From Tuwongella immobilis (GTDB lineage: Bacteria > Planctomycetota > Planctomycetia > Gemmatales > Gemmataceae), in the NCBI RefSeq assembly GCF_901538355.1, contig NZ_LR593887.1, positions 3,138,920 through 3,202,919 of the forward strand: a stretch of DNA of 64,000 nt. Direction: 5' to 3'. The notes below the pieces were generated by a model. That model was not told the origin of the DNA. It saw only the letters and a list, made by a program, of their open reading frames with translations, and ran no database searches. Shown here one piece after another: positions 25,652 to 55,734 of the stretch (the stretch's first letter is position 1; the number at the start of each line of letters is the position of its first letter). Position numbers and translations under genes: made by a program.

Positions 25652-25920
25652 CGGCAAACCTCGATACACCCACGAATCGATCGAACCGAATGCCCACGGT
25701 ACGGCAGCATTGGTTGGCTGTCAAACATTGTGTACCAAATTAACGAAGTCGGATTTCCTACCACTGGGATCATGCCCGAAGGCGTTGTCTTGAGCATTGG
25801 AGTGATGTCAGAGAGATGCGGTTTCGGCTGGATTCGGGGCCGAATTGGAGCGCTCGAACCACTTTTCTCGAATCTGTAGCGAAATTTTGTTCAAATGGCC
25901 TTGACTTCACTACTGTACAA

Positions 25921-27162
25921 ATGCAGATTGGAGATATGAGGCGTGCAATCGGTCATTTAGATGCGGATTCCTTCTATGTCTCCTCGGAACGGGTGCGTGA
26001 TCCGTTTCTGAAAGACAAGCCAGTTGGGGTATTGGGCAACAATGGTGCCTGTGTGATTGCTCGCAGTTATGAGATGAAAGCCATGGGCGTTCGGGTGGGC
26101 GAACCGATCTGGGACGCCATCAAGCGCTGCCCAGATGGGATTTACGTGAAACGCGATTTCCCCTGGTACGAGGTGCTCAGCCGGCAAATGCTGGATGAGA
26201 CCTGCCGACGGTCGCCGTTAGTCGAATACTATTCGATTGATGAGTTTTTCTTCCTCGTCGAACCGTATCCCATCGAACGGATGGAACGGCTGGCGCAATC
26301 CATTCGGGACGATATTTTCCAGAAAACGCGGCTGCCCGTGACCGTTGGTTTGGCCCGATCTCGCACCCTGGCCAAGCTACTCACCGACACCTACAAGCCA
26401 TTTGGAGCGGTGGCCATGCTACGCCCGGAAGAGGAACGGGCCTTACTCATGCGGCTGCCGGTGACGGCGATTTGTGGAATCGCCGAGCGCCGCGCCAAAC
26501 GATTGGCAATGTACAATATCCGCACCTGCTGGGATCTGGCCCAAATGTCGCGCTCGTTGGTCCGCCAATTGCTCACCGTCACCGGCGAAATCATTTGGCG
26601 GGAGCTTAACGGCGAACCCGTTACCCCCATCCAAGCCGAACGCCCTCCCCACAAGATGCTTTCCCGCGGCGGGAGCATCGGTTGGCCTACCAATGACCGC
26701 GATATTATTTTTGCTTGGATTGTTCGCAATCTGGAACGACTCATTGAAGAATTGGAATTTCATCGCGTCCGCATCGGCAAGTTGACGCTCTGGCTCAATT
26801 ATGCAGATGGCGATGGCCCGGATACCATCGGAGAACACACCTTTGAAACCGTTACCGATCGATTTGATCTGCTCCTAGACGCCGCTCGAACCGCGTGGCT
26901 GCGCTCCTGGAGAACCGGAGCCCGCGTTGTTCGCATGCAGTTGATTGGCACCCACTTGCGACGCAGCGGATTGGTCCAACAAAGCCTGTTCGAGCAGCCC
27001 AATCCACAGCAAGTCGCCCTGAGCCAAGTGAAGCAGCAAATCAACCAAAAGCTCGGTCGCTTCAAACTGCGGAGCGGCGCCACCTTACCACTACGCGAAA
27101 TTTATCGCGATGAATCGTGCAACTACGATATCTGTGATGTGCGCGGGAAAATCTGTTTTTAA
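25921..27162 (+). CDS. Y-family (DinB/UmuC-type) DNA polymerase
   Basis: 413 residues from ATG 25921 (or 408 from ATG 25936, which has GGAG but at short range). It starts with GHLDADSFYVSSERV, carrying the first catalytic aspartate, and has YYSIDEFFF with the second acidic pair, so the active site is intact, unlike ImuB. Further parts are RLPVTVGLARSRTLAKL, a helix-hairpin-helix near ICGIAERRAKRLAMYNI and the little-finger domain up to about residue 360. It should copy damaged DNA with low fidelity. A 155-residue gene follows after 30 bases. I could not find a convincing LexA box upstream. Confidence 0.9.
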   Translation: MQIGDMRRAIGHLDADSFYVSSERVRDPFLKDKPVGVLGNNGACVIARSYEMKAMGVRVGEPIWDAIKRCPDGIYVKRDFPWYEVLSRQMLDETCRRSPLVEYYSIDEFFFLVEPYPIERMERLAQSIRDDIFQKTRLPVTVGLARSRTLAKLLTDTYKPFGAVAMLRPEEERALLMRLPVTAICGIAERRAKRLAMYNIRTCWDLAQMSRSLVRQLLTVTGEIIWRELNGEPVTPIQAERPPHKMLSRGGSIGWPTNDRDIIFAWIVRNLERLIEELEFHRVRIGKLTLWLNYADGDGPDTIGEHTFETVTDRFDLLLDAARTAWLRSWRTGARVVRMQLIGTHLRRSGLVQQSLFEQPNPQQVALSQVKQQINQKLGRFKLRSGATLPLREIYRDESCNYDICDVRGKICF

Positions 27163-27192: not shown

Positions 27193-27660
27193 ATGAGTAT
27201 GGGCATTGCTTTACCTTGGAACGAGTTGCCGTTATCACTCATCGAGGCAAATCAATTAACGGGTCGAATTCATGAACGCGGCGGAGAAAAAGAAATCCGG
27301 TTTCTCGTGCGCCACTATCCCCGCATCCTCCCCATTTGGTTGGATGGCCAAATTCAATTGGCCCGCTGGGGCAGCACACGCCGCGATAGCCGACAGTTAC
27401 CCCCCACTGCATGGACCTGGCAAGAAAGCATCGATTCCGGAAAATGGTCCGGATTCAACGCTCAACTAGTCGATATTCCCGCGAATTTTGGTTTCGATAA
27501 AGGGGTGTGGTTCCGCATCCGCCAAGGAATTCGCGGCTTATACGTGCGTGATGAATTCAACCAGGGAACTGTCTACATGATCTGCGAACCCGCAAGTCGA
27601 TACTACCGCATCATGACCCGCAGCGACCGCATGCCCACCCTAATCGACGAAATCATCTGA
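27193..27660 (+). CDS. conserved-looking protein downstream of the Y-family polymerase
   Basis: 155 residues with many tryptophans and arginines (LPIWLDGQIQLARWGS, TAWTWQESIDSGKW) and no cysteine except one near the end. It has no signal peptide or membrane segment. The gene follows the polymerase by 30 bases on the same strand, so a role in the same damage response is likely but unproved. I considered an SOS-associated peptidase (SRAP) because of the WG motif, but the catalytic N-terminal cysteine is missing. Family not recognised. Confidence 0.72.
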   Translation: MSMGIALPWNELPLSLIEANQLTGRIHERGGEKEIRFLVRHYPRILPIWLDGQIQLARWGSTRRDSRQLPPTAWTWQESIDSGKWSGFNAQLVDIPANFGFDKGVWFRIRQGIRGLYVRDEFNQGTVYMICEPASRYYRIMTRSDRMPTLIDEII

Positions 27661-27716: not shown

Positions 27717-27744
27717 GAGCGGAGGGACAGGGATTCGACACCTA
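27717..27744 (-). other. tRNA 3'-end fragment, likely prophage attachment site
   Basis: Read on the minus strand, 27739-27720 gives T-loop GTCGAAT, T-stem 3' strand CCCTG, acceptor 3' strand TCCCTCC and a G discriminator. The T-stem 5' side matches only three of five positions and there is no anticodon or D arm to the right, so this is a 3' fragment, not a tRNA. Such fragments mark the far end of elements integrated into a tRNA gene. The acceptor strand and G73 suit tRNA-Ser. Host genes lie to the left and phage genes to the right, which is the expected polarity. Confidence 0.65.
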
Positions 27745-27778
27745 TTAAAAAATGCCTTGAATTCGTAGAATTCTTGGA

Positions 27779-27826
27779 AGCCTGACGTAAAAACCGACGT
27801 ATCCACAGCGGCGATTACGTCAGGCT
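27779..27826. repeat. perfect 12-bp inverted repeat beside the attachment fragment
   Basis: AGCCTGACGTAA (27779-27790) and TTACGTCAGGCT (27815-27826) are perfect inverted copies, 24 bases apart. The plus strand continues GTTTCGTTTC. It lies between the tRNA fragment and the end of the AP2-like gene and may be that gene's terminator or a recombinase arm site. Confidence 0.7.
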
Positions 27827-27839
27827 GTTTCGTTTCTGA

Positions 27840-28169
27840 TCAACTTCGACCCGCTGGGTTTGCAGGTTGGTCGAGCGTCGGCTGAAGCATTTCAATTCGG
27901 CGATCGATCGCCGCCGCCGCCAATTCTCGGGTCGAATATCGACCGAGGCACAGTCGGCCCAAGTTCGTCGAGATCCGGGCCCGGAACTTTCGGCGGTGTT
28001 TATCCCAGGTGACCGAGCCGCGCCCATGAACGATTGGCGGCCCGCTTGCCGGCGCGGGATAGCTAACCGCCTCGGTGACCGTTGCATCCAACGGATGAAA
28101 GAGTTGCTCCCGCCGGCTGGCCCGCTCTGCCATGACTTGGATCTTCGCGTCGGTGCCCGGCAGCGCCAT
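27840..28169 (-). CDS. small AP2-domain-like DNA-binding protein
   Basis: 109 residues from ATG 28169, with GGAG six bases upstream; the frame stays open to 28340, but the extra part is low-complexity Arg/Gly/Ala. The C-terminal half reads GSVTWDKHRRKFRARI, then GRLCLGRYSTRELAAAAIDR, which fits the AP2/ERF three-strand plus helix DNA-binding fold. In phages this fold occurs in homing endonucleases and small DNA-binding proteins; no HNH nuclease domain is present here. It is the phage gene closest to the attachment fragment, so a role in excision or regulation is possible. Moderately sure it is real. Confidence 0.6.
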   Translation of the reverse strand: MALPGTDAKIQVMAERASRREQLFHPLDATVTEAVSYPAPASGPPIVHGRGSVTWDKHRRKFRARISTNLGRLCLGRYSTRELAAAAIDRRIEMLQPTLDQPANPAGRS

Positions 28170-28452
28170 CGTCGGCTCCGCTGCCAGCCGGCCCCGCCGC
28201 ACCCCATTCAATCGCCGCCGCCGTCCACCTCGAGCGGCCGCACCCCGCCCAGAAACAACAGCCGAGGCAGACCCCGCAATCGAGCGAGTCTCGATCGATC
28301 GACAACCAGGCTGGCGTCCCATTGAAGATGCCCCACCCACTGCGGCTGATCACCATCAGCCATGCGACAAGAACCGATCCCGTTCTGTCGGCAAAATCGC
28401 TCAGAGGATTGTCAACTTCACAAGTAATATTGTCTAAAATATGCCTGGGTGA

Positions 28453-29331
28453 CTATTTATGAAACTTCGAAGATTTGATGGCGGTTTCGACCCCTAACAA
28501 AAATCGAAGTGCAAGATCAAGGTATTCTCTTGCTTCAAGAGGCGAGACAGATTGTGCTGAGGAATGAACCGCTTGGTTCCGAAGTTTTCGGAGCCCATTA
28601 TACGCATCGTTTAATGATTGGGGTAAAAGACTACTAAGATCCTGGCTTCCAATGCTGGGTTCGTGTTTCATTGCTCGCTGCAACCCTTCAAGTGATCTTT
28701 CGATTCTAGTCCAAATGTATTGCACAGCTACAGATGGAGATTTATCAATTAGCAGGTGTAAATCTTTATCCATGGAAAGTTGAATGAGTAGTGATGGCTC
28801 AGAGGTGGTTAGGAAGGAGTTAGGGTAATAATCAGATCCCGAACAATATGCAGGAGCTGTGGTCGTTGGTGGAAGTGTTGTGGTCGTTGTTGGAGGAGCC
28901 GAAGTAGTGGGAGGAATCGAAAAAAATTGCTGATCTAAGGCAGTTGGTCCAGGGATTCTAGCTGCATCAAGTTCTTTGTCGATAGATTTCAACTGCTCTG
29001 AGAATTCACCTTTGATGCCACCTGGTCCTTCAAATTTGATAAGTCTATTGATTAGCGTGTCTATTTGTTGTCGGGATTTCCAAAAGATCACCCCGACCAC
29101 GAGCGGCCACGAGCCATACTCTACTAATTTGACAATAAGATATATCAGATTCCAATTTTGCGGAGAGCTGTGTTGTTCCAGAGAATCTGATGTTTTCTCA
29201 GGTTTTGATTCTTCTAGAACTTCACCGGCAAAAGCCTCGTTGTTAAGGAGGCCGATACTGTCGACTGTCAAGAAAAAGATTGCACAGATCGATAGTACTG
29301 ATGGTCTTATAGAAGTGATGGTGTTTTTCAT
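28453..29331 (-). CDS. membrane-anchored HEPN-like protein (phage cargo gene)
   Basis: 292 residues from ATG 29331 (AAGG upstream), in clearly AT-richer DNA than the phage late genes. It has a signal-like N-terminus (VLSICAIFFLTVDSIGLL), a membrane segment near residues 65-85 (LVEYGSWPLVVGVIFW), a charged linker, a Pro/Thr-rich stretch (APPTTTTTLPPTTTAPA) and a helical C-terminal domain. That domain contains LRKLRNQAVHSS, an RX4H motif with Asn after Arg, as in HEPN ribonuclease and DUF4145-like domains. It lies beyond the late-operon terminator, so it is expressed on its own. A defence or exclusion role is possible; function unproved. Confidence 0.75.
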   Translation of the reverse strand: MKNTITSIRPSVLSICAIFFLTVDSIGLLNNEAFAGEVLEESKPEKTSDSLEQHSSPQNWNLIYLIVKLVEYGSWPLVVGVIFWKSRQQIDTLINRLIKFEGPGGIKGEFSEQLKSIDKELDAARIPGPTALDQQFFSIPPTTSAPPTTTTTLPPTTTAPAYCSGSDYYPNSFLTTSEPSLLIQLSMDKDLHLLIDKSPSVAVQYIWTRIERSLEGLQRAMKHEPSIGSQDLSSLLPQSLNDAYNGLRKLRNQAVHSSAQSVSPLEAREYLDLALRFLLGVETAIKSSKFHK

Positions 29332-29423
29332 CAAGTTTACCTTCAAGATTTGCTAGTGAATTTGATGTTATGCTAGTTATCCTGCTATTTTACATCGTCG
29401 GTCAGATACATAGAGAAACTTGA

Positions 29424-29468
29424 ACGAAAAGACCCCTCACCTTTGCTGGTTTGCAAAAGTGAGGGGTC
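29424..29468 (-). terminator. rho-independent terminator of the phage late operon
   Basis: On the minus strand the arms GACCCCTCAC (from 29468) and GTGAGGGGTC (to 29431) pair over ten positions, extended inward by TTTGC/GCAAA-type pairing, and are followed by TTTTCGTT. It lies just past the stop of the gene ending at 29515 and closes the long leftward late operon. Confidence 0.88.
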
Positions 29469-29514
29469 CAGCCTGGGGAGATGCACGTCGCAATTGCAAC
29501 GATCCGATCGATCA

Positions 29515-30522
29515 TCATCCCCGGTTCTTTTCGAGCAGGCGCATCAGCTCGGCGAGTTGGTCGGGGGTGAGGCTTGGGGTTGGTTGGGGGCGCAGGCGAG
29601 CCAGGAGGCTGCCGCCGGCGGCGAGGAGCGGGCCTTTGAAGATCAGGGCCACGATGATGCCGACGAGGCCCAGAGTCGTCGGCGTAAAGCCCGAGAGGGC
29701 ATCGCTCAACGGATTCGAGGATGACTTCCGAAGGTCGGGATCCTTCGCCGGGTCGTAATTCGGATCGCTTTTGCGGATGGCGCTGGCGAGCGAATCCGGC
29801 CCATCGTAATCGTCCTGGCGATGCAAGACCTTACCATTCGGCGCCTGCAGGTAGATCGTCGGCTTGCCGCTCGTCACAAACCCCGCATCGTTCACCGCCC
29901 AATCAGCCGGCGAATAGGTCTTGATCACCAGTTGGTCACGATATCCGCTCAGCTTCGGCGACGACTTCAAATCCTCGACCACCGCTTTGCGCTGCTCCGG
30001 CGTCCCGATCACCGTCAGGCGTCGGAGGTGCGAGTCATCCACCAGGTCATCGCCAGCCGCTTGGAAGGCTTCGGCCTGGCTGACTTCTCGACCGTTCAAC
30101 GAATAGCGCTCCCGGTGGCCGAGTTTGTCCAGGTCGATCCCATAGTTGCCGGCTGGTGGGCGAGTGGCCTCCTCGGCTGACTCGGGGCGAGGTGGGCCGG
30201 ATTCTACGAGCATCGACTTGGCCGCCGAGGGCTTCGAAACCACCTGGCTCGGGTTGCGAGCGGCGTCACCCCATCGACCATTCTGATACCAGCGGACGAC
30301 ATCGGCGGTGGCATCGTAACCAAGGACTCGGGTCGAGCCACGAAACAGGTGGACCTTCTCGGGATCCTCTTCGGTGACGATCGACCACGGTGCGGAGCGG
30401 TCGGTCGGCGCTGGCGATGGTTGGATCAGCGCCGGAGCAGCGAGGAAAGGGCGCGAGCATTGCCCATTGATGCACTGCGCGGGAGACATGGTCATTGCGA
30501 TGATTGTCAGTGTGGAAAGCAT
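29515..30522 (-). CDS. exported protein with C-terminal membrane anchor, last gene of the late operon
   Basis: 335 residues from ATG 30522, with AGAGGG seven bases upstream. A signal-like N-terminus (LSTLTIIAMTMSPAQC) is followed by a domain with VHLFRGSTRVLGYD and VRWYQNGRWG. A central part (DYDGPDSLASAIRKSDP) looks thioredoxin- or Rossmann-like but has no motif I can name. A C-terminal membrane helix follows (TTLGLVGIIVALIFKGPLLA, about residues 290-310). It sits directly downstream of the cysteine-peptidase-like gene and 47 bases before the operon terminator, the place where many siphophages carry lysis genes. Function unknown. Confidence 0.72.
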   Translation of the reverse strand: MLSTLTIIAMTMSPAQCINGQCSRPFLAAPALIQPSPAPTDRSAPWSIVTEEDPEKVHLFRGSTRVLGYDATADVVRWYQNGRWGDAARNPSQVVSKPSAAKSMLVESGPPRPESAEEATRPPAGNYGIDLDKLGHRERYSLNGREVSQAEAFQAAGDDLVDDSHLRRLTVIGTPEQRKAVVEDLKSSPKLSGYRDQLVIKTYSPADWAVNDAGFVTSGKPTIYLQAPNGKVLHRQDDYDGPDSLASAIRKSDPNYDPAKDPDLRKSSSNPLSDALSGFTPTTLGLVGIIVALIFKGPLLAAGGSLLARLRPQPTPSLTPDQLAELMRLLEKNRG

Positions 30523-30596
30523 CGATTGCCCTCTGGATGCGATCCGCACGAGTCTCGACCCATGCGGAGCCGTTTTTGAAGTTGCGACACGCGGAT

Positions 30597-31223
30597 TCAG
30601 TTGGTCGGTGGCGGGGGCGGCGGTGGTGTCAGCCAAACATGGACCCAACCTTGCCCAGTGGCGTGCTTGATGCGGCTCACGGCCTCATCGGGGCTCATCC
30701 ACTCGTAATTGCCGGGGAAGTTGTTGTCGAGGATGGCGGCGGATTTACTGCCGAATTTCGGGCAGCAAACCATGTGGTAGATCGTCCCACCGTATCGAGG
30801 CGAGCGACCATAGGTGACCGACGCCATTCGGCCAGTCTTATCTGCCAAGGCCAAAATCGGGGCCGGATCTTTGCCTTCGTATTGGACATAACGAGGCGGT
30901 TCCAACCCCTTGAGTTTGGCATAGGCGGCGATTTGCTCGTCGACTTTGCCCGGATACGAGCCACCAGGCCATTGAGCGGACCAGTCTCGGAACCCTCGCC
31001 AATCCTCCATGCCAGCCCAGCGGGCGGCCATTTCGAGCGAGCTATTGACGCACATCCCGGCCCCATCGACTCGACTGCCGATGTTGCGAATGTGCTCCGA
31101 GACGGGCAGATCGACCGTCAGGGACTCTCCCTGGAAGGTCGGCCCGCCCACCGTGGATGGGCCTGCCAGCGCGATGCCTGCAAGCACAATCGTGCTGAAC
31201 GCAAAGATCCATTTGAGACGCAT
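30597..31223 (-). CDS. exported papain/C39-like cysteine peptidase
   Basis: 208 residues from ATG 31223 with GGGAG eight bases upstream. A signal peptide (LKWIFAFSTIVLAGIALA) directs export. The mature part shows GMCVNSSLEMAARW (candidate nucleophile Cys near residue 58 of the full protein, at the start of a helix), then TIYHMVCCPKF (His near residue 150) and ILDNNFPGNYEWM (Asp/Asn), in the order of papain-like or C39-like peptidases. The C-terminus is a poly-proline tail. By position at the end of the late operon it could be the cell-wall lytic enzyme or a virion-processing protease. No cell-wall-binding domain is visible. Confidence 0.7.
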   Translation of the reverse strand: MRLKWIFAFSTIVLAGIALAGPSTVGGPTFQGESLTVDLPVSEHIRNIGSRVDGAGMCVNSSLEMAARWAGMEDWRGFRDWSAQWPGGSYPGKVDEQIAAYAKLKGLEPPRYVQYEGKDPAPILALADKTGRMASVTYGRSPRYGGTIYHMVCCPKFGSKSAAILDNNFPGNYEWMSPDEAVSRIKHATGQGWVHVWLTPPPPPPPTN

Positions 31224-31275
31224 GGGACGGGCTCCCAAAAAAATGGTGGGTGGAGCAAAGCGAAAACCGCAGGGA

Positions 31276-31437
31276 TCACTCCCCGGTCGGCGCGCACGGA
31301 CACGATTTGGCCTCGCTCACCGTCGAGACCGGTACGCTGGTGGGAGTCAGCGAGACATGAATGCCAAGGGACGCCAGCACCGCGGCGATGGCCGCCCAAG
31401 CCAGATCCGTCAAACGCTTGCGGTCGAAATTGAACAT
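31276..31437 (-). CDS. 53-residue membrane protein, holin-like candidate
   Basis: A short frame from ATG 31437 to TGA 31276, with GAGG six bases upstream. The product is MFNFDRKRLTDLAWAA... with one hydrophobic helix (about residues 11-30) and a C-terminal part carrying two cysteines (SCPCAPTGE). The basic N-terminus and single helix suit a holin or pinholin, and the gene directly precedes the exported peptidase-like gene. This placement is the main reason for the suggestion. The start region contains a 9-base inverted repeat (31443-31488). Confidence 0.65.
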   Translation of the reverse strand: MFNFDRKRLTDLAWAAIAAVLASLGIHVSLTPTSVPVSTVSEAKSCPCAPTGE

Positions 31438-31442
31438 GCAAA

Positions 31443-31488
31443 CCTCGTGAATGGAGAAATCGTCTCGAAATTCGAGGACTTCACGAGG
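31443..31488. repeat. nested inverted repeats upstream of the 53-residue membrane protein
   Basis: CCTCGTGAA (31443-31451) and TTCACGAGG (31480-31488) are perfect inverted copies; inside them CTCGAA-A-TTCGAG forms a second palindrome. The outer arm covers the ribosome site of the gene starting at 31437, so folding of the message could block its translation. Confidence 0.55.
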
Positions 31489-31610
31489 ATCGCATGGGGA
31501 CCAAGGGAGGGGGGATCATGAGCGAGAATCTTCAGTCAACGATGAATAACAGATGGTTGTGTGTTCGCGCATCAATTAAGGGAATTCAGCCCTTCAGAAA
31601 CCAAAGTGAC

Positions 31611-32546
31611 TTAGGGCAAACTGACAGGTTCTCCGCCAGCTCGAGTTGAAAGAGCGGGAAGGAGGTCATTCACGGAGTAATTGAGATATCGACAAGAGCC
31701 GTCTGCAAAAAGAAAATTTGCCCCACCCGAATGAAGACTCCAAAGGTGATATCGATCACATTCATTCGCCGGTCGTCCTGGACCAAACGCATTGGGAATT
31801 CCTCCAACACAAGAATCACCAGGCGGTACTGCGACCGGAGAAACGGTATGGATGAGTTCATCAGGTCCAAATCGGAACCCGTTACCTGGTTCGGGGGATA
31901 ACCAGGTATACCAAATCCCAGCTTGAAGGGTGTCAGGTGGTGGTCGTTCTCCACAAATCAACGTATTTGTCGTTCCATCCAGAATATCACTCATGCGGAT
32001 TTTGCTCGAGAGTCCTAAAACACCTTCAAAGCCTCTACCCCCTCGCAATCCAATGTAATCCGTGAACGCTGCTCTGATGCCCACAGGATTGGTGAGGGAT
32101 GAAAACAATCGACCATCCGCGGGACAAACATACGGTTTGATGACAAGTGAAAGACCTTGATGCGGAGGGGAGACGAATGGATCAACGGGTTCCATTTTTA
32201 ATGCGTCAATGGCTTGCATTCCTTCAGTAGGATACCCCAACTCAGGGAGAATCAGGACTCGCCAACTTAGCGGAGAATGAACATTCAGATCGATAGTCCC
32301 CGCAGGAGGTCCCTGAGGAAAGAAGCCTCGGCGATCATGAAATGCATGAATCGCTAAGCCGATCTGTTTGAGATTATTTTGACAAGCAAGTTTGGTAGAT
32401 GAGGAACGAATTGCCTGGATGCCTGGTAAACTCAGGCCAATTAAAATCCCAAGAATTCCAATAACAACAAGTAATTCGATTAGCGTCATCCCAAGACGAG
32501 AAGGCAATGGTCGCATTGGAACAACATTTTCGATTTTTGCAACCAT
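31611..32546 (-). CDS. DUF1559 pilin-like protein
   Basis: 311 residues from ATG 32546, preceded by AAAGGAG. The N-terminus carries a type IV pilin-like methylation and helix signal (GMTLIELLVVIGILGILIGL), then the DUF1559 hallmark CQNNLKQIGLAIHAFHDRRG and the family ending LFADGSCRYLNYSVNDLLP. DUF1559 proteins are a large expanded family of planctomycetes and are normally chromosomal; one lying among phage tail and lysis genes is odd. It is the second gene of a two-gene cargo operon behind its own promoter (33794-33822). The exact role of the family is unknown; a pseudopilin-like surface or secretion role is likely. Confidence 0.9.
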   Translation of the reverse strand: MVAKIENVVPMRPLPSRLGMTLIELLVVIGILGILIGLSLPGIQAIRSSSTKLACQNNLKQIGLAIHAFHDRRGFFPQGPPAGTIDLNVHSPLSWRVLILPELGYPTEGMQAIDALKMEPVDPFVSPPHQGLSLVIKPYVCPADGRLFSSLTNPVGIRAAFTDYIGLRGGRGFEGVLGLSSKIRMSDILDGTTNTLICGERPPPDTLQAGIWYTWLSPEPGNGFRFGPDELIHTVSPVAVPPGDSCVGGIPNAFGPGRPANECDRYHLWSLHSGGANFLFADGSCRYLNYSVNDLLPALSTRAGGEPVSLP

Positions 32547-32556
32547 AACGACTCCT

Positions 32557-33660
32557 TTAAGACTTCGCCTTCTTTGATCTCTGGACGGCAAAGAGTACCA
32601 TCCCGAGAATTAAAACGAGAAACGAAAAAATGAAGATGATTGGCGCAGTGAGGTCGAAGGCTTCTGAAGTCGAAGCAAATTTAGTGGAATTCAACATCGA
32701 CTGATCAGATTCAACTGGTTCACTTTGTGAAAGAGTTAGTCGCTGACCTTGTTTGTTTTTTGCGACAAGTGTTGGCTCCCCTGAATTATTTGTCCGAAAG
32801 AGATCATTGCGAACCAGATCCGTGACAAGAATACCAGGAGGAAAACGAAATTCAAAACTTTGCGATTTCAATGGTTGATTGATTTTTATGTCACTAAAAG
32901 TGACTTTGCATGTCGAATTGTTCTTCGAGTTTGAAATCTCGACACGTTTCGGGAAATACCGATTGTTCGACTGGGTAAATTCTAAGACTGTAGAGGTTGC
33001 ATCAACAGACTGATCGACAAGTCGAACTTGACGGATAAGATAGTCGTTTGATGTGTCGAAGGAAATCGTTAATCTTGCACGAGTGTGCTCCAGCTCAACG
33101 ATTTTAACTCGGTGGCCATTTATTAGATCATCCCGAACCGAATTTATTGATGTGTCTTTATGCGAGAATATATCATTGAGTGGAGATCGGAATCGGGTTG
33201 GACCGTACAACGTTATCAGTGAGTATGCCCAGGGATCACAATCGATAGGCATATCACTATTTGAGATCAGTCCCTCAGTTTCGATGGCTCGTTTCGAGTC
33301 GGATGTCAGCCGCCGAATTAAGTTGTCACGGACGAGGATTGTATTTGAAGTAGTCCCGATTCGGTGTTTAATGAGTGTGCGGTTGGAGGCAGTGTCAGAT
33401 ATGACAAGCGCCTCTTCATTAAAGATATTTTGCTGAGCAGGGGAGTATTCGATATTTATTTTGCATTGGAGTGTAACAATACCTGATACAGCATTTTGGT
33501 GATTTGATCGAATTTGCTCAAATGATTCTGAGGCAGGTGCCAGACTAAACAATGACAGGAAAATAAACACAGATACAACCCCTATGTTAGTCAGACTTGC
33601 GAATCCAGTCTCCCGGACACACAAAACCCTTCCCTTGTCCGTGAAGATGGGCACCTGCAT
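32557..33660 (-). CDS. exported protein with C-terminal membrane anchor, cargo operon
   Basis: 367 residues. After a basic leader comes a hydrophobic stretch (IGVVSVFIFLSLFSLAPASE), then a mainly beta domain (about 50-270) that recalls LolA/LppX-like or planctomycete outer-membrane sorting proteins: TLQCKINIEYS, VKIVELEHTRARLTISF. A final membrane helix (IIFIFSFLVLILGMVLFAVQ) precedes a basic end. DNA is AT-richer than the surrounding tail genes. It lies 10 bases before the DUF1559 gene and both are served by the promoter at 33794-33822. Function not known. Confidence 0.78.
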   Translation of the reverse strand: MQVPIFTDKGRVLCVRETGFASLTNIGVVSVFIFLSLFSLAPASESFEQIRSNHQNAVSGIVTLQCKINIEYSPAQQNIFNEEALVISDTASNRTLIKHRIGTTSNTILVRDNLIRRLTSDSKRAIETEGLISNSDMPIDCDPWAYSLITLYGPTRFRSPLNDIFSHKDTSINSVRDDLINGHRVKIVELEHTRARLTISFDTSNDYLIRQVRLVDQSVDATSTVLEFTQSNNRYFPKRVEISNSKNNSTCKVTFSDIKINQPLKSQSFEFRFPPGILVTDLVRNDLFRTNNSGEPTLVAKNKQGQRLTLSQSEPVESDQSMLNSTKFASTSEAFDLTAPIIFIFSFLVLILGMVLFAVQRSKKAKS

Positions 33661-33793
33661 TCATGTGGCCACCATCAAAAAATCTCCACCGAGACCATTC
33701 CTGGTTAGTAATTGAACAGACGGTTGATAGATGTTCACGATTTTGGAACTGACAAGAACCCACCTGCTTGAACGAAAGCTGATAGGTTGGAAG

Positions 33794-33822
33794 AATTTAT
33801 TCTTAGTGAACCATGCTGTCAA
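33794..33822 (-). promoter_or_regulatory. sigma-70 promoter of the DUF1559 cargo operon
   Basis: On the minus strand TTGACA (33822-33817) and TAAATT (33799-33794) are exactly 17 bases apart, the best housekeeping-type promoter in the phage region. Transcription would start near 33787, leaving a leader of about 130 bases before ATG 33660. It lets the two cargo genes be expressed in the prophage state. Confidence 0.7.
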
Positions 33823-33853
33823 GGATATTTTGACGACTACTGCACAATTCGAG

Positions 33854-34102
33854 TTAAGTTGGACGAAACTCGCATCCCACACAGCAGGCGCGGCCTGGTT
33901 CTGGTTGCGTGATTCGGCAGGTGCCGTGGATCTCGCAGGCGTAGAGCCAGCGGCCATGGCATTGGCAAGGGGTGCCGGCGGCATCGGTGCGGGCGAGGGG
34001 TAGGGCGGAGCGGTGGTCGCAGTCGAGGGCGGCCTCGGGGGGAGTGGAGGCCGGTCGGGGTGGCTCGGGACGTCGGTCGTGTTTGTGACGCAGGGGAGTC
34101 AT
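33854..34102 (-). CDS. small Cys/His-rich phage protein
   Basis: 82 residues from the ATG overlapping the upstream stop (ATGA at 34099-34102). It carries many cysteines and histidines: CDHR, PCQCHGRWLYACEIHGTC, and ACCVGCEF near the end, suggesting one or two bound zinc ions. The N-terminal third is basic and Pro-rich. It is the last gene of the tail block before the cargo operon. Overlapping frames in the same stretch lack any such pattern, so this frame is the likely one. Function unknown. Confidence 0.65.
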   Translation of the reverse strand: MTPLRHKHDRRPEPPRPASTPPEAALDCDHRSALPLARTDAAGTPCQCHGRWLYACEIHGTCRITQPEPGRACCVGCEFRPT

Positions 34103-35568
34103 GTGTGGATCTCCACCGTAATCGGAATTCCGGCGATCGAGAATGTGTACACCCACCGATGGACCACCCCATCCACCGTGTAAGTCGTGTAAGGGACTGT
34201 GGTTGCGATCGAGCTTCCATCGATCCAGCTCAACTCAAAATCCGCGTCGGTGCCGAATGGATGTGGCTTGGTGTGGTAGAACTGCAGGACTTGATCGAAT
34301 GCAGACGGATCATCCGCATGGACTAATCGGCAATCCACACGACCACCGCGTCGGGATGACATCACCTCCAGCGAGTCGATATCCGAGTATGCTCGGCTGA
34401 TCGGTTTGACGATCGAGGTGCCAACTTGCCCGGTGTGGGCGGTGGTGTACGGCGCTGGGACGGTGAACTTCCAGAAGCCCGGTCGAGGGGCCTCGGCGGG
34501 GACAACCAGTGGAAACGGCCAGGTGCGAGCGCTCAAGGTGATGGTGTTGGTTCCTGCCGGCAGCAAGGTTTGTCCACCGCCGGGAATCTCGAATTGCAGC
34601 GTGTCGCCCACCCGCACTCCCCAGAACAGATATTGCTGCTCCTCGGGCAGAAAGCCAAACCCGGAATTCCCCCAGAAAAGCAGATAATCCTCTCCATAGC
34701 GGAAGACGCAAATGTGCGGCCCGTAATCGCTTCCGAAAACCGTCGACTCCAGAAAGGTCATGCCACCATACGAGAGATTGGCATTCTTCCGCATGACAAT
34801 GTAGTCATCGTAGTACGGGTGATAGAAGCCGATGCAATCGGGCAAACCATCGAGCGGATCGAACGAGTTGTACAAATCGGGATCAATGACGCTGGTGTCG
34901 CCCGCTTCAAGGATCGTGATCTCGGCGTTCCAAGGGCTGGGTGGAAACACTGCAGTGAACTGATTCAGATAGACAAAAGTCGGACTGAACAGGGCCATGA
35001 TTCCAAGCCGGCCACGAGTCGAGGATACCAGAGCGTCGGCGGAAAGGGCCGCGCCGCAGCGACTCAGGCTCGCGGGATATTGGTCGCCGAGGGCGATCCA
35101 GGTCGCTTGGGTGAAGCCCTCGGATTGATACTCCACCACGCTTTGGGTGCAGATCGTTCGCCCGGCGAGTCCGGATGAGAATTTGAACGTCGTGATGGTG
35201 TAGAACCGCGGGACGGTCGCCCCGAGACAGGGGACCATGACCAGGTCGCAGGCGCAATCGGTGGCGGTCGTGCAGAACAGATCCATCAGCATCCAGATGG
35301 GGAGCCGGATCCGCTGCTTGGTCAGACGAATCCCGACGGTAGCGAACTGCCCGCCCTCGGTCGCACTGTCGCAACAATCGCTGGCGGGGATGTCGACGCA
35401 GAATGGTGCCCCGACTTTCTCGCCTGGCAATCGGAGTTTGCGACGAGTGAGCTTGAGTCGTGGCTGGCTGCCACTGGGTGGTTCACCGCAGCAGGATGGC
35501 CCGCTGACCACGCATCGGCTGGCCTCGGCGTGAGCGACCAACTTGCGGCGCTGGATCTGCATATCCAT
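34099..35568 (-). CDS. phage tail-region protein, Cys-rich
   Basis: 489 residues from ATG 35568, which overlaps the previous stop; GGAAGG lies upstream. The first 150 residues contain many cysteines (RCVVSGPSCCGEPP, DIPASDCCDSA, DLFCTTATDCACD), followed by a long beta-rich part typical of virion surface proteins. The C-terminus (YTTYTVDGVVHRWVYTFSIAG) also looks like beta structure. It lies between the fibre-like protein and the end of the tail block, so it is probably a tail tip or baseplate component. No named family recognised. Confidence 0.7.
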   Translation of the reverse strand: MDMQIQRRKLVAHAEASRCVVSGPSCCGEPPSGSQPRLKLTRRKLRLPGEKVGAPFCVDIPASDCCDSATEGGQFATVGIRLTKQRIRLPIWMLMDLFCTTATDCACDLVMVPCLGATVPRFYTITTFKFSSGLAGRTICTQSVVEYQSEGFTQATWIALGDQYPASLSRCGAALSADALVSSTRGRLGIMALFSPTFVYLNQFTAVFPPSPWNAEITILEAGDTSVIDPDLYNSFDPLDGLPDCIGFYHPYYDDYIVMRKNANLSYGGMTFLESTVFGSDYGPHICVFRYGEDYLLFWGNSGFGFLPEEQQYLFWGVRVGDTLQFEIPGGGQTLLPAGTNTITLSARTWPFPLVVPAEAPRPGFWKFTVPAPYTTAHTGQVGTSIVKPISRAYSDIDSLEVMSSRRGGRVDCRLVHADDPSAFDQVLQFYHTKPHPFGTDADFELSWIDGSSIATTVPYTTYTVDGVVHRWVYTFSIAGIPITVEIHT

Positions 35569-36794
35569 CAATACACCTTCCGCCATCGGAGGATGGTATA
35601 GCCGATCGTGCCACTTCGAACTTGAACCGGTGTGGTGGTGCCACCGCCAGATGTTGTACACCGAGCTTGGAGCCGCAACACTCGCCCAGCACTGGCGGTG
35701 TGTGCCCAATGCACGCTGGATGTCCCTTGCAAGATGACACCGACTTGATTGGTCGAAAACGCGAACCGGATCGAGTCACCGGGGTTGTCTTGAACCACCG
35801 CACCCAGATCGTCGATCAGTCGAAATTCGACATAGGCGCTGGTGGTGGAACTGATAATGAAGCGATAGTCCAGGGTGATGTCGTAATGACCGGCATCCAG
35901 CGAGGCGGTGGCAATGCCGACATTGGCCCACGAAGTCCCGATGTCGGCACTGTTTGTGGTCATCGCCGTGTGACCAAAGGTCTGGCCTGGGAACACATTC
36001 ATCTGCGCCAAGTCCCCGAGACCCAGCACCGCACGAGCCGCCGGCGCTCCGGATGCCGCCATCAGACTGCGGGCGATCGAGAGGCACGGGAGCTCCACGA
36101 TATCGCCAGCCGTGTTGCCGCGGCCCAGCACGATGTTGGCGCTGGCAGCTTGCAAGTTGGCATAAGTCACGACATTGGCGGCCAGTGCGGTACTGATCAA
36201 CGTCGTTCCAGAACCAGTGACGGCCCCAGAGATGGTGATGGTTGGAGTGGGCGGCGGTGGCGGGCTCGCGGGGAGTGAAGCCGGTGTCCATTCGGTGCCG
36301 TTGTAGGTGAGTACCTGGCCGGTCGTCGGGGTCGAGTTGGAAACAGTCCGCCCTCGAATCGCTGCAACGATGGTCTGGACGGCCGACTTGCCACTGACGT
36401 AAGCCACATCGCCTTCATGGGCAACGTCGTAGAAATCCGAAATTGTCACATAGTTGGTGTCACCGCTGACCCCATTACTGAACGCGATGAGACTCGAAGG
36501 CATAATCGCAGTTGATTCGGCGAGTGATGCAAGATCGAGTCGCAACGGGTCGCCGGTCGTTCCATTACCTGACAGACCACCATTCGCTCCAACAGCGACG
36601 GTCCCCGCGCCGCCGCCGCTGATGACTGCGTATTTCCCGTCGCCGGTGCTGATCCAAATCTCATGGGTGCCCGATTCCCGATGGTAGAACACCCGCCCAT
36701 CGAAGTCGCCAGCTTTGGTCCCGCCGCCGGTGATGAGGGTGATTTCTGCCTTGGTCCGCGGCAGTAACCCAAATGGTCCGCTAAGGGTGGCCAT
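35568..36794 (-). CDS. tail fibre/tip protein
   Basis: 408 residues. The N-terminal part (about 1-70) includes RVFYHRESGTHEIWIS, a pattern common in fibre adaptor domains. The middle is Gly/Ser/Thr-rich with the repeat-like motif GGLSGNGTTGDPLRLDL, then a Pro-rich hinge (SPPPPPTPT, about residue 180). The C-terminal 140 residues (YDITLDYRFIISST, LRLQARCTTSGGG) look like a C1q/TNF-like jelly-roll used by fibres to bind receptors. It probably determines host attachment. It is coupled to the genes on both sides. Confidence 0.75.
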   Translation of the reverse strand: MATLSGPFGLLPRTKAEITLITGGGTKAGDFDGRVFYHRESGTHEIWISTGDGKYAVISGGGAGTVAVGANGGLSGNGTTGDPLRLDLASLAESTAIMPSSLIAFSNGVSGDTNYVTISDFYDVAHEGDVAYVSGKSAVQTIVAAIRGRTVSNSTPTTGQVLTYNGTEWTPASLPASPPPPPTPTITISGAVTGSGTTLISTALAANVVTYANLQAASANIVLGRGNTAGDIVELPCLSIARSLMAASGAPAARAVLGLGDLAQMNVFPGQTFGHTAMTTNSADIGTSWANVGIATASLDAGHYDITLDYRFIISSTTSAYVEFRLIDDLGAVVQDNPGDSIRFAFSTNQVGVILQGTSSVHWAHTASAGRVLRLQARCTTSGGGTTTPVQVRSGTIGYTILRWRKVY

Positions 36795-36795
36795 C

Positions 36796-37368
36796 TTATG
36801 CCCCTATGAACGTGTCGCCGGGCCGCAATGCCGCTCCATCGGCAAGCTGCTCAGTCGTGACCGATCCATCGGCCAGGACGGGATTCGTCGGGCAGACATC
36901 CACCACCACATCGAGCTCAATCATGCCGCCGTTGGATGCAATGAACCGCCAGTTATCATCGACTTCCCCTTCGACCAACGAAGCGGATGCGGCATTGGGG
37001 ATCTCGAACACCAGGACGATCGTGTTAATTGGGATGCCGGCGGTGTTGCCGACTTCGCGGATGCAGTTGAGCGGGAGCTCCTCGACCAGCTCGCCGCGCA
37101 TGCCGCCGATTTTCTCGGCGAGGTCGCCGGTCTCGTTCGGCTCGAGCTCGATCCATGAATAGAGTCCCTCCTCGACTTCGCCCGTCAGTTTGCCGAGGTG
37201 GAATCGCATTCCGGTCGGGATCCGAAGTTGGGGCACACCGCCATCACGGCTGATCTCGCCGCCATCGACACGCATGCCGACCGCCGACTTGAGCGCATCG
37301 ACCAGCGTGTTGAGTTGGCTCGCGCTGACTTGTTTGGTGCCGGCCTCGAATGGTTTGATCGGAGGCAT
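36796..37368 (-). CDS. phage tail protein
   Basis: 190 residues from ATG 37368, one base after the stop of the upstream gene. The opening PPIKPFEAGTKQVSASQLNTLVDALKSA resembles the trimeric attachment helices of fibre-associated proteins, and the rest is beta-rich and acidic. An ATG 72 bases upstream would overlap the previous gene and was rejected. By position between a tail-tip protein and the fibre it is a tail or baseplate component. Family not recognised. Confidence 0.68.
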   Translation of the reverse strand: MPPIKPFEAGTKQVSASQLNTLVDALKSAVGMRVDGGEISRDGGVPQLRIPTGMRFHLGKLTGEVEEGLYSWIELEPNETGDLAEKIGGMRGELVEELPLNCIREVGNTAGIPINTIVLVFEIPNAASASLVEGEVDDNWRFIASNGGMIELDVVVDVCPTNPVLADGSVTTEQLADGAALRPGDTFIGA

Positions 37369-37369
37369 G

Positions 37370-38353
37370 TCAAATCGCCCTCGGATGGAACAGTAAGTTG
37401 AAGCCCCGCACGGTCTTCCCACCCAACGTCTGCTGCACATCCTTGTCGAGCAGGTGGATCGAACGGTCCTTGTTCTTCATGAGCTGCACACGCCGCCAGA
37501 AGCCAGTCCGCGGATCGAAGAGGCGATTCCACCCAACGAATCCCTTGCTGGTCACCGGCGGCGGGTTGGGATTGCCGGGTGAGGGGATGCCGGGCTTGCC
37601 CATGTCGTCGTAGGTGGGATGCACCGCGAACTTGTAGGTGAGCTCGAAAAACCGGAAGCCGAAGTTGGAGATTTTGCGGGTGGCGGTGGCGGCATCAAAC
37701 CGCACCGTTTCCGCAGGGTAGGTGTCGCCGGCCAGGCGAATGGTCGTGGAGTTGATTCGGCCCAACATCGCTAGGATGCCGTTGAGTGGCTTGGTCCGGC
37801 AGCGATGGCGCACCATCACCAACTCGATGCGCGGGATGAGCTTTGTCACCGCAACATCCGATCGCTGCAGCAGTTCCGCTGGCGGCTGGGTATCGACCGC
37901 ATTCTCCCAACCATAACGATTATTCGGGAGTGTGATATTCTGACCGCTGAACTCCCAAGTCATGCTCGCCAGGTCGATTTCCTGCGGCGAATCACCTTGG
38001 GCTTGGTCTTCCTCTTCGGTCTGTTCGGGAGTCCGATAGATGACGGTCAGACTGACCGGATCGGCAAAGTAGTCTGCAGCCCGCTGGAGCGGCGTCAACG
38101 TACCAGGGGTTTCGGGATAACTCTCCTCGATCGGGTCCATCTTCACTTCGGCCACTCGGCACCACGGGGCCCGTGGATCGCGTGCGGGTGGCACGCGGAT
38201 GATTCGGCCTGCCACCAAGCGAACCGTTCCCGTGAGGGCGGAATACGCTTCGAATCGGGCGCTGCCCGGCTTGCAGAGCATCTTCTTTTCGATGGTCATG
38301 CCTTCGGGGGTGATGACCTCTTTGCGGCTGACTTCCGTAAGCGTGTATGCCAT
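37370..38353 (-). CDS. phage tail protein downstream of the tape measure
   Basis: 327 residues with no membrane segment. It has a compact N-terminal domain (TPEGMTIEKKMLCKPG), a middle section with FSGQNITLPNNRYGWENAVD, and a C-terminal part containing SNFGFRFFELTYKFAVHP. In siphophages the first gene after the tape measure usually encodes the distal tail (Dit-like) protein, and that is a reasonable guess by position. I see no sequence signature that proves it. Four bases separate its start from the tape-measure stop. Confidence 0.68.
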   Translation of the reverse strand: MAYTLTEVSRKEVITPEGMTIEKKMLCKPGSARFEAYSALTGTVRLVAGRIIRVPPARDPRAPWCRVAEVKMDPIEESYPETPGTLTPLQRAADYFADPVSLTVIYRTPEQTEEEDQAQGDSPQEIDLASMTWEFSGQNITLPNNRYGWENAVDTQPPAELLQRSDVAVTKLIPRIELVMVRHRCRTKPLNGILAMLGRINSTTIRLAGDTYPAETVRFDAATATRKISNFGFRFFELTYKFAVHPTYDDMGKPGIPSPGNPNPPPVTSKGFVGWNRLFDPRTGFWRRVQLMKNKDRSIHLLDKDVQQTLGGKTVRGFNLLFHPRAI

Positions 38354-38356
38354 GGC

Positions 38357-39559
38357 TTAACTCCCGACTGCGGGGACAAACGCACCCCGGATCGCCCCGA
38401 GGACCTGGCCGAGCGTCTCGTTCATTTTCTTCTGCTCCCCGAGTTGGTCGCGCGCGATATCCTCGGCTGAGCCACCCGCAAACGCCTTCTGAAGCCGATC
38501 CCAGGTCCCTTGCATCGACTCAAACTGAACGTCGAGTTTGAGTTGTGGGCCAGCGCCGCCGGTATTGAATGCATCCGTCACGCGCTGAATTCCCATCGCC
38601 AGTCCCGACGCGAATCGCTCGCCGACCTTGCCCCATTTGCTCCCGCGAGCCTCGAACTCGGCATCCAGGGCCGCCAGCTTCGCCTTGAGCGCGGGATTGT
38701 CAAAGAACTTGTTGAGGTTCTTGCTTTCAAAAGGGCGGAAGGCGAGACTCTCGAGGTTTTCGGTGATGCCTGCAAAATTGCCGCTGATCGCTCGCTCGGT
38801 CATGGTGCGAACATTGCGAGCCATGGCGCCGCCGATGCGAACCGCTTCATCAAACGTAAATCGAATGAACTGGAGCAGGTCGTCGAAGACAGCCCGCGCA
38901 AACGAACCGAGATTCTGAAAGACGAACGACGAAACCGCAAAAAACTTCCGTACACCCTTTTCGCCAGCCAGGTAGGCATCCACACAAAATTGCATGGCCT
39001 TGCCGACGTTCTCCGAAAAGGTTCCGGTGATTCGCCCCGTGCTGACGAGATACGTCCCGATTGCAGCAATGCCGGCAATCATCAGACCAATCGGCGAAAT
39101 GACCGCTCCGATGACAGCTCCGACGATCGGCATCACGGCGATGAACGCACCAATCCCGGCGACTGCCAGCACGGTGGCTGTGACCACCGCTTTCGTCGAT
39201 GGGGTCAGCGACCGATAGGCATCCGCTAAGGAAACGATTCCACTCGTCAGAATGCGGACATAGGGAGCGAGGCCACCCCCAACAACTCGGCCAAGATATT
39301 CCATCGAGGCACCAAGTCGCTCACCTTCCACGGTCCCAGACATCGCCGCTCGCCCGAAGGTTGCGACCGCCCCGCCGGCGATTCCGCCAAAGACGATTCC
39401 GAGATTTTTCGCACTCGATGCGATCGAGCCGATGATCGTCCCAACACCCGAGAAACCGCGGCTGATGGCAGCGACGGTGCCAGCCACTGCCGACTTCGAT
39501 GCCTCGAGTCCTTTGACGCTAAACTGAACAAACATCTCGCCAATTTTGGAGCTCTTCAT
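38357..39559 (-). CDS. tail tape measure protein
   Basis: 400 residues, short for a tape measure. It opens with a helical segment, then Gly/Ala-rich hydrophobic stretches (GTIIGSIASSAKNLGIVFGG, AVVTATVLAVAGIGAFIAVM, AVISPIGLMIAGIAAIGTYL) that are typical of tape-measure membrane regions. A charged coiled region follows and the C-terminus (QKAFAGGSAEDIARDQLGEQ) is helical. A tape of this length predicts a short tail, roughly 60 nm at 0.15 nm per residue. It follows the tail-chaperone frameshift pair, the usual place. Start ATG overlaps the chaperone stop. Confidence 0.85.
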   Translation of the reverse strand: MKSSKIGEMFVQFSVKGLEASKSAVAGTVAAISRGFSGVGTIIGSIASSAKNLGIVFGGIAGGAVATFGRAAMSGTVEGERLGASMEYLGRVVGGGLAPYVRILTSGIVSLADAYRSLTPSTKAVVTATVLAVAGIGAFIAVMPIVGAVIGAVISPIGLMIAGIAAIGTYLVSTGRITGTFSENVGKAMQFCVDAYLAGEKGVRKFFAVSSFVFQNLGSFARAVFDDLLQFIRFTFDEAVRIGGAMARNVRTMTERAISGNFAGITENLESLAFRPFESKNLNKFFDNPALKAKLAALDAEFEARGSKWGKVGERFASGLAMGIQRVTDAFNTGGAGPQLKLDVQFESMQGTWDRLQKAFAGGSAEDIARDQLGEQKKMNETLGQVLGAIRGAFVPAVGS

Positions 39560-39753
39560 GGAATCCCATCCAACGGTGGTAATCCTCGTCGCGCTCGCCG
39601 TTCGTTCAACAACACAAAGGCTTCAGCGGGGGACAACGATCCAACAGGCGCCTGCAGCGCAAAGAGCTGATGGACCGTGTGCTCATGGAGCGTCATGTGT
39701 GGGGTCCACCCGAATTCATGCCGGATTTGCTTGGTGTACGTCAGCCACTTCAT
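39556..39753 (-). CDS. tail assembly chaperone, downstream frame (GT-like)
   Basis: This reading frame gives a 65-residue product if it starts at ATG 39753 (GCGAGGA upstream), but the frame is open far upstream and is entered by a -1 shift from the preceding gene at 39801-39807. The fused product would have about 237 residues. The sequence (KWLTYTKQIRHEFGWTPHMT then LHEHTVHQLFAL) is helical, as in lambda gpGT's T part. Chaperone genes directly before the tape measure are the rule in long-tailed phages, which supports the call. Confidence 0.78.
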   Translation of the reverse strand: MKWLTYTKQIRHEFGWTPHMTLHEHTVHQLFALQAPVGSLSPAEAFVLLNERRARRGLPPLDGIP

Positions 39754-39776
39754 CGGTTCCTCGCTGAGCATTTCGC

Positions 39777-40268
39777 TCAAGAAGAGGAAGCACCAAGTGC
39801 TTTTGGGTCGATTTGATCCTCCACTTGCACCCCGGTGGCGGTATCGAAATCCGCGAGGACCTGATCGACATTCGACGCATCGATCAGTGCTTGGATCTCT
39901 TCGAGGCGAATCGACCGATCGTGCTTGCGGGTCGCCAGCCAAACCATCATCGCCGCGCCTTCGGGCGAGGTGGTCACATCGAACAATTCATCTGCCGACA
40001 ATTCCCGCTTGCGGGATCGTGCCATGGCAAACTCGCGCAGCAGCGTTTGCTGGGCCTCCGGGTCAAGTCGGTCCAAGTCGGCTTGCTGGAGGCCGACCGG
40101 TTGGCTGGATTGCAGGATTCGCTCGGCGTTGGCAAAGATCCATTTCCGCATGGTGAACAGGTCGGCGGGAGTCGGTGCGGAGACCAACAGGGTGCGATTG
40201 CCGATCGTCAGCGGGCCAGGGGCGGAAATGATCTCTTGCGAATGGCGACGATTCTTCTTGTGACTCAT
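39777..40268 (-). CDS. tail assembly chaperone, upstream frame (G-like)
   Basis: 163 residues from ATG 40268. The middle is helical (TPADLFTMRKWIFANAERIL, SPEGAAMMVWLATRKHDRSI) and the protein ends ALGASSS. It lies between the tail-tube-like gene and the tape measure, the position of gpG in lambda. Near its end the slippery heptamer C-CCA-AAA (39801-39807) is exactly in the phase required for a -1 shift into the next frame. Most ribosomes would make the short form and a few the fused form. Confidence 0.8.
   Translation of the reverse strand: MSHKKNRRHSQEIISAPGPLTIGNRTLLVSAPTPADLFTMRKWIFANAERILQSSQPVGLQQADLDRLDPEAQQTLLREFAMARSRKRELSADELFDVTTSPEGAAMMVWLATRKHDRSIRLEEIQALIDASNVDQVLADFDTATGVQVEDQIDPKALGASSS
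39801..39807 (-). promoter_or_regulatory. programmed -1 frameshift slippery site
   Basis: On the minus strand the zero-frame codons read GAC CCA AAA GCA, so C-CCA-AAA is an X-XXY-YYZ heptamer. Slipping back one base gives CCC AAA AGC and leads straight into the open frame ending at 39556. The site is eight codons before the zero-frame stop, as in other phage tail-chaperone pairs. Confidence 0.85.
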
Positions 40269-40279
40269 CGGGGTGGTTC

Positions 40280-40666
40280 TCAGCTGTAGGTGAATGCCAC
40301 GTTGGCGTATCCGGTGACAGACAGGCGAACGACGTCTTCGTCCTCGTCGTTGACGTAGGTGCATTTTTCGATGATCACGGCGGGGGAGGTCCACTTCTTG
40401 CCGGAGCGACCGGCGTTGAGCACCACCTTGATGATTTTGCCTTCATCGAAGCCAGATGCCTCCGGGTTGATCGCATCATCCCAAGGGACTTCGAAGGTCA
40501 CCTGTTGGTTTTTGATGGTGGCGTGGCGCTGCTTGATGCCGTTGGATTTCGAGGAGGTCGTATTCGCCAGGGCGACGCTCTTATCGAGTGTCCACTTGGC
40601 GACCGGCCAATCGACATCCGTCTCCGTCATCGTGACGGTCCCGCCCTCACCGGCCCAGTGTGCCAT
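40280..40666 (-). CDS. tail tube protein candidate
   Basis: 128 residues with GGAG before ATG 40666. The sequence is beta-rich and compact: VTMTETDVDWPVAKWTLDK, VTFEVPWDDAINPEASGFDE, KWTSPAVIIEKCTYVNDEDE, ending in VTGYANVAFTYS. Length, fold pattern and position just before the tail-chaperone pair suit a siphophage major tail (tube) protein. No database family could be confirmed by eye. Confidence 0.65.
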   Translation of the reverse strand: MAHWAGEGGTVTMTETDVDWPVAKWTLDKSVALANTTSSKSNGIKQRHATIKNQQVTFEVPWDDAINPEASGFDEGKIIKVVLNAGRSGKKWTSPAVIIEKCTYVNDEDEDVVRLSVTGYANVAFTYS

Positions 40667-40716
40667 AGTTGATCTCCAGGATTGAAACCGAGTCGTCCCA
40701 TCAGATCAGCGGGACC

Positions 40717-41262
40717 TCAGGCGACGCCAGCAATCACGACCGCCACTTGGATCGGATTTGCCGATGGATTGTGGAATCGCAGGATCTTGCTGGTCGGGGA
40801 AACAGGCCACCCCGCCCAACGATTGACTCGAGCGACCGCGTCCCAGACGGCTTCGCCGGCATCCGCGCCGCTGCCAGCAAACCAGAGGGCCGCGCCGTTT
40901 GCCACCCCCAGCGGCCCGACCACAAACCGATGCACGCCATCGGGTAGCGGCGTTTCTTCATCGCCGATCAGGGTGGCATAGAACAGCTTCACCGCCGAGA
41001 GCGAACGATTGGCTTGGCGAAGGACGTTGGTGAACTGCTTCAGGTCGACATCGCTGTTGCCGCCGGCGGCGATTGTCAGCACCTCGGCGAAGAGCTCGTT
41101 GGCTTCCCCATCGATGTCACCTTGGCCCAACGACACATTCAAGCCAGGCAGCCCGCCCGAATTGCTTTGCAGCGAGGCGGTTGGAATGTAGATCACCCGA
41201 TCGAGGTCGGTCAGCGAGGCGGTGACATCGATTCGAATGTTCGCAGCGAATTCGTTCGGCAT
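40717..41262 (-). CDS. phage structural protein of the tail-tube region
   Basis: 181 residues, rich in Ala, Val and Gly with a regular alternation of strands (VIYIPTASLQSNSGGLPGLN, AVKLFYATLIGDEETPLPDG, ILRFHNPSANPIQVAVVIAG). It sits between the tail-terminator-like gene and the tail-tube candidate, so it is a structural component, possibly a second tube or a decoration protein. I cannot tell which of this and the next gene is the main tube subunit. Confidence 0.65.
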   Translation of the reverse strand: MPNEFAANIRIDVTASLTDLDRVIYIPTASLQSNSGGLPGLNVSLGQGDIDGEANELFAEVLTIAAGGNSDVDLKQFTNVLRQANRSLSAVKLFYATLIGDEETPLPDGVHRFVVGPLGVANGAALWFAGSGADAGEAVWDAVARVNRWAGWPVSPTSKILRFHNPSANPIQVAVVIAGVA

Positions 41263-41265
41263 CGA

Positions 41266-43663: not shown

Positions 43664-43718
43664 GGCAAGCACTCGCAAGGGAAATGGAGTCCATCCGAAA
43701 TCATGCAGTCAGAACGGG

Positions 43719-45023: not shown

Positions 45024-45047
45024 GGTCTTTGCACTCCTCCGGATGGG

Positions 45048-45794: not shown

Positions 45795-45801
45795 GGGCGA
45801 C

Positions 45802-50780: not shown

Positions 50781-50791
50781 CGGCTCACCTT

Positions 50792-51220: not shown

Positions 51221-51228
51221 GAGAAGCT

Positions 51229-51258: not shown

Positions 51259-51277
51259 ATACTGAACAAATTCTTGT

Positions 51278-55711: not shown

Positions 55712-55734
55712 CCACCTGTTTGAATATTAACCAT

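Follow-up and report, generated by a model that had tools for sequence, protein, structure and literature searches.

What is a piece of a serine tRNA gene doing beside phage genes in a stretch of DNA that holds no complete tRNA? The stretch, which we call the window, is 64,000 nucleotides long and covers positions 3,138,920-3,202,919 of a genome of one contig (6,690,754 bp); no Rfam family matches within it. The host is a planctomycete which, judged from its relatives, would belong to the family Gemmataceae. An earlier, sequence-only reading had taken the letters at 27717-27744 for the 3' part of a tRNA-Ser with a G discriminator, marking the junction of chromosomal and phage genes, and had predicted an intact minus-strand tRNA-Ser and an integrase gene to the right of the window. 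Extended coordinates below are the window numbering carried on past the right edge (position 64000), and the genome-wide statistics were obtained from pattern searches.

The sequence at 27717-27744 is as that reading described it, with the part identical to a tRNA limited to 27720-27738. This att core, TCGAATCCCTGTCCCTCCG, runs on the minus strand from the T-loop interior to the discriminator G, and the bases beside it (GAG to the left, CACCTA to the right) give no continuous match with the tRNA. The fragment is without CCA, which is usual in this genome, where a rough check found CCA at the end in 1 of 30 tRNA genes. The 19-mer has exactly two copies in the 6.69-Mb genome, both on the minus strand. 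The second lies at the 3' end of an intact tRNA-Ser(UGA) 3.2 kb past the right edge of the window, on the strand foreseen, with a core-to-core distance of 39,512 bp. The anticipated direct repeat is present, over 19 bp and not over 24-28, and it is limited by the tRNA end on one side and by the T-loop interior on the other. Four tRNA-Ser genes were examined, and this one alone has the anticodon UGA, the others having CGA, GGA and GCU. A 16S rRNA gene, read by eye, is found just past the UGA gene.

The integrase was also found where it had been expected. It is a tyrosine integrase with catalytic and core-binding domains (Pfam PF00589 and PF13102), and its gene ends approximately 130 bp from tRNA-Ser(UGA), the two genes standing tail-to-tail. 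Packaging, head, replication and lysogeny genes are all present between the repeats (Table 1). Both cores are on the same strand, and in geometry as in polarity they fit an element that has inserted at the 3' end of a tRNA, with the target tRNA regenerated intact at the right junction; the integration proposed from the fragment is borne out by the repeat, the intact tRNA and the integrase. As read from the assembled sequence, we therefore have a temperate tailed prophage that a tyrosine integrase placed in the single-copy tRNA-Ser(UGA), at its T-loop/3' end, and a fragment that is the displaced end of that tRNA, a conclusion of which we are very nearly certain.

Table 1 Features of the prophage, of its flanks and of related elements in the same genome. 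Positions are those of the window unless marked as extended or genome.
Feature	Position	Strand	Remarks
Prophage	27720-67250 (extended); in-window part 27720..64000	.	39.5 kb between cores
Y-family (UmuC/DinB-like) DNA polymerase, left chromosomal flank	25816..27162	+	Pfam IMS 9.7e-36
155-aa protein, left chromosomal flank	27193..27660	+	relatives in other planctomycetes; no phage family match
Left att core	27720..27738	-	displaced tRNA-Ser(UGA) 3' end; exact 19-bp copy of 67232-67250 (extended)
Left-end candidate arm-type site TGACGTAAAAACCGACGTA	27780..27801	+	GACGTAAAAANCGACGT exact match; ~40 bp inside left core
Left-end cargo region (probable)	28453..33660	-	membrane protein, unknowns, DUF1559 (pilin-like N-terminus), LolA-like
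Tape-measure-like protein, weak	38357..39559	-	PHROG E 6e-5
Minor head protein / head morphogenesis	48112..49194	-	PHROG 4e-13
Portal protein	49191..50780	-	PHROG 1.3e-30
DNA methyltransferase	51278..52282	-	PHROG 1.3e-69; Pfam 1.8e-28
Terminase large subunit	52279..53760	-	PHROG 1.6e-107
Terminase small subunit	53720..54286	-	PHROG 3.4e-40
DNA primase/polymerase	55735..57840	-	PHROG 3.4e-81
DNA helicase	57834..59957	-	PHROG 1.3e-100
RusA-like Holliday junction resolvase	59798..60616	-	PHROG 1.2e-32
Single-strand DNA binding protein	60444..60965	-	PHROG 4.4e-47
Sak4-like annealing protein	60962..61915	-	PHROG 9e-43
Excisionase-like regulator (weak match)	64253-64996 (extended)	-	
CI/LexA-like repressor	65203-65805 (extended)	+	
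Tyrosine integrase	65950-67101 (extended)	+	PF00589 E 1.9e-15; PHROG integrase E 2.6e-42
Two right-end candidate arm-type repeats	about 67076-67115 (extended)	+	
Intact tRNA-Ser(UGA)	67231-67319 (extended)	-	3' end carries second 19-mer copy
tRNA-Val(UAC) element, ~25 kb	genome 3,087,919-3,113,350		~90-bp near-identical end duplication; arm-type motif both ends
tRNA-Sec element, 42-kb	genome about 1,948,000-1,990,700		terminase gene; in predicted selenocysteine tRNA gene
38-kb element	genome 6,406,228-6,444,469		terminase gene; 16-bp core CTAAAGGTATCAGCAC
Integrase paralogue tail-to-tail with tmRNA gene	genome 4,309,491-4,310,819		

We also looked for an empty site in other genomes. The same fragment in phage-free relatives, which the sequence-only reading had named as evidence against itself, was not found: none of 58 related genomes carries the 19-mer, these genomes being all too distant for a true empty site and none of them of the same genus. 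The 155-aa protein of the left flank, which stands beside the Y-family polymerase and has no Pfam match, is conserved in 19 of the 58 related planctomycete genomes. No tRNA was found within 1.5 kb of those homologues that were examined, and synteny has therefore been lost, making this search uninformative on the empty site.

The left end of the element needs a closer look. The fragment does mark the end of the element, as had been claimed, but not a direct passage to phage genes, since no recognised phage gene is found in the first 6.4 kb to its right (27.7-34.1 kb). The DUF1559 and LolA-like genes in this part (31611-33660), which have low GC, are probably cargo. An uncultivated viral genome of the public catalogue, IMGVR_UViG_2883404505_000002 (33,003 bp), is this same prophage, both stretches compared being identical to the window. 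By coordinates it spans 34,099-67,101 (extended), with its right end at the integrase stop codon; its boundaries follow genes, and 6.4 kb and both att sites are left out. One could accordingly place the start of the phage near 34.1 kb, with the 27.7-34.1 kb part being chromosomal or another insertion and the fragment an older or composite scar at the same site. The catalogue boundary, the planctomycete-type DUF1559 gene and the lack of phage matches of known function at 28-34 kb would agree with this. However, the left core carries no mutation over its 19 bp, a motif that matches the one on the integrase side lies just inside it, and neither a second core nor an exact arm-type motif occurs between 28 and 64 kb, so that we consider a later start of the phage unlikely.

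That motif is a paired repeat, and arm-type sites are known in lambda-like systems. The paired 6-mer GACGTA-N6-GACGT, with a spacing of 12 bp, has exact matches at both ends of the element and nowhere else in the genome, and the three exact genomic matches of GACGTAAAAANCGACGT are divided between the left end (one) and the right end (two). All four main paralogues carry the related form GNCGYAAAAAGCGNCGYA, one mismatch being allowed, at their integrase end, and three of them have it at the far end too. In order to have a measure that presumes no motif, we counted identical 6-mers by spacing just past the integrase core in 43 non-redundant related planctomycete loci. A spacing of 12 bp was present in 37 of these loci, compared to 1.9 (maximum 5) in shuffles, and further spacing peaks were at 11, 23 and 35 bp. 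This pattern suggests that the paired repeats are probably integrase arm-type sites; the literature that we searched has no description of such sites for this integrase family. The left candidate arm-type site also forms an inverted repeat, AGCCTGACGTAA ... TTACGTCAGGCT (27778-27830), and this may act as a terminator or provide an additional binding site.

The repeats near the integrase end could instead reflect a repeat of the protein, in its C-terminal tail, and not sites on the DNA. In many relatives they appear inside the integrase frame, and 12 bp corresponds to four codons. However, neither 11 nor 23 bp corresponds to a whole number of codons; here one copy at the right end lies past the integrase stop codon, the copy at the left end is outside any int gene, and in a free phage described below a copy is found beyond the core, all of which makes a protein-level origin quite improbable. 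As for the fragment itself, the shared length of only 19 bp might be put down to a chance match or to a degenerate second copy of the tRNA that has no connection with the phage, a possibility that is practically negligible given a chance expectation of ~5e-5 and the strand, polarity, integrase and arm motif at both ends, which fit integration. The expectation is 0.003 when the 3' ends of all 61 tRNA genes are counted; shuffles of the window gave 0.03 matches to the 19-mer on average with up to 3 mismatches allowed, and the 19-mer read backward gave 0 matches in the genome even at 3 mismatches.

Returning to the integrated prophage, we compared the predicted structure of its integrase to known recombinases. 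The prediction gives a three-domain fold, matching full-length lambda Int (1z1b) with Z 17.7 and lambda Int 1z19 with Z 18.2, rmsd 3.2 and 249 aligned residues; the predicted fold is shared with the lambda and Tn1549 integrases, whereas the sequence is not, identity being ~18%. The N-terminal 80 residues are predicted, with a mean pLDDT of 91, to form strands at 3-6, 11-17 and 23-30 and a helix at 33-52. This domain is matched best by 3rmp, 3jtz and 3ju0, arm-type binding domains of P4-like integrases, but at low Z (3.9-4.4; for 3rmp Z 4.4, rmsd 1.4, 48 aligned), and a Foldseek search with the domain alone gave no significant match. The arm motif itself is particular to the present integrase family. 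We infer that residues 1-80 probably bind paired GACGT-type arm sites, with GACGTAAAAAGCGACGT as a candidate, on both sides of the attP core. No near relative of the integrase was found in deposited phage genomes, identity being at most ~32% among the matches listed.

The same arrangement can be seen elsewhere. All ten integrases that are at least 55% identical and have an RNA gene downstream (this one counted) face a tRNA-Ser, with anticodons UGA, CGA, GGA or GCU. For one of the ten, from an independent genome, the geometry is repeated with a fragment, a 17.8-kb element, an integrase 58% identical and an intact tRNA-Ser(CGA); its displaced fragment has no tRNA around it and an arm-type motif ~64 bp inside. 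A 35.7-kb viral contig has, in this order, the integrase, paired repeats, GGTTCGAATCCCACTCCCTCCG (a tRNA-Ser 3' end) and a paired repeat, and no tRNA was found near its integrase; judged by its sequence, this is the order expected of the attP of a free phage. Two more elements of the same genome, with paralogous integrases, have the same build, one of 25 kb in tRNA-Val and one of 42 kb in tRNA-Sec. The displaced copy of the tRNA-Sec element has one acceptor-stem change. For the 38-kb element, ARAGORN found no tRNA gene at the core. The 3' end of the tmRNA gene that adjoins another integrase paralogue occurs in one copy only, with no second one found in the genome to mark a distal end, and the tmRNA-adjacent element has therefore lost one end or is not intact.

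By analogy to lambda, the integrase and host factors would pair attP with the tRNA gene. The attB before integration would have consisted of tRNA-Ser(UGA), followed by the CTCTTTTTGATTGG flank and the polymerase gene. As has been suggested for mycobacteriophage Ms6 and other class II sites (PMC1762012), strand exchange probably takes place near the T-loop edge, because the tRNA cores compared begin in the T-loop or close to it. With attP bringing the same 19 bp, a complete tRNA would be rebuilt at the right junction; the 3' end from the phage is identical, and the single-copy tRNA would therefore stay functional. The original 3' end would have been moved 39.5 kb leftward, becoming the fragment at 27720-27738, and the two cores would presumably also allow the element to excise.

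The integration itself is a textbook case with a classic arrangement. In the class II (T-loop) tRNA integration of Ms6, a 26-bp att core extends from the T-loop to the tRNA 3' end (PMC1762012); the core described here has the same extent, with 19 bp in place of 26, in a tRNA-Ser and not a tRNA-Ala, and in an unrelated host phylum. Islander-type islands in tRNA and tmRNA genes likewise have their two ends marked by a regenerated target and a displaced fragment (PMC4383910), by an established principle, in a work whose main text makes no mention of planctomycetes, to which the present prophage belongs by its host. In the tRNA-dependent lysogeny of the mycobacteriophages Fionnbharth and Boilgate, integration does not restore the target tRNA, and a tRNA carried by the phage takes its place (PMC10865867). 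These phages are similar to ours in having a tyrosine integrase, a tRNA target and paired arm-type sites flanking the core (candidate sites here; PMC10865867). They differ in that the target tRNA is intact here and no phage-borne tRNA was found, either in the window or in the part of the element beyond its right edge.

A 19-base scrap of tRNA alone correctly predicted features outside the window, and exact ends are now set for a prophage that was given wrong boundaries in a public viral catalogue. Our literature search found no description of this prophage, and in the Tuwongella proteome paper 'prophage' is a category name only. Beyond this element, we are inclined to think, with some reserve, that this planctomycete integrase family has kept an arm-site code (paired 6-mers at 12-bp spacing, often 12-11-12, just past the integrase coding core and once more at the distal end) while its core target changed repeatedly, among tRNA-Ser, Val, Glu, Asn, Arg, Leu, Lys, Met and Sec and tmRNA. 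If this is true, it would give a simple sequence rule for locating both ends of such elements. For the planctomycetes, a phylum with few known phages and limited genetic tools, the arm-site pattern could help delimit mobile elements and provide tRNA-targeting integration vectors.
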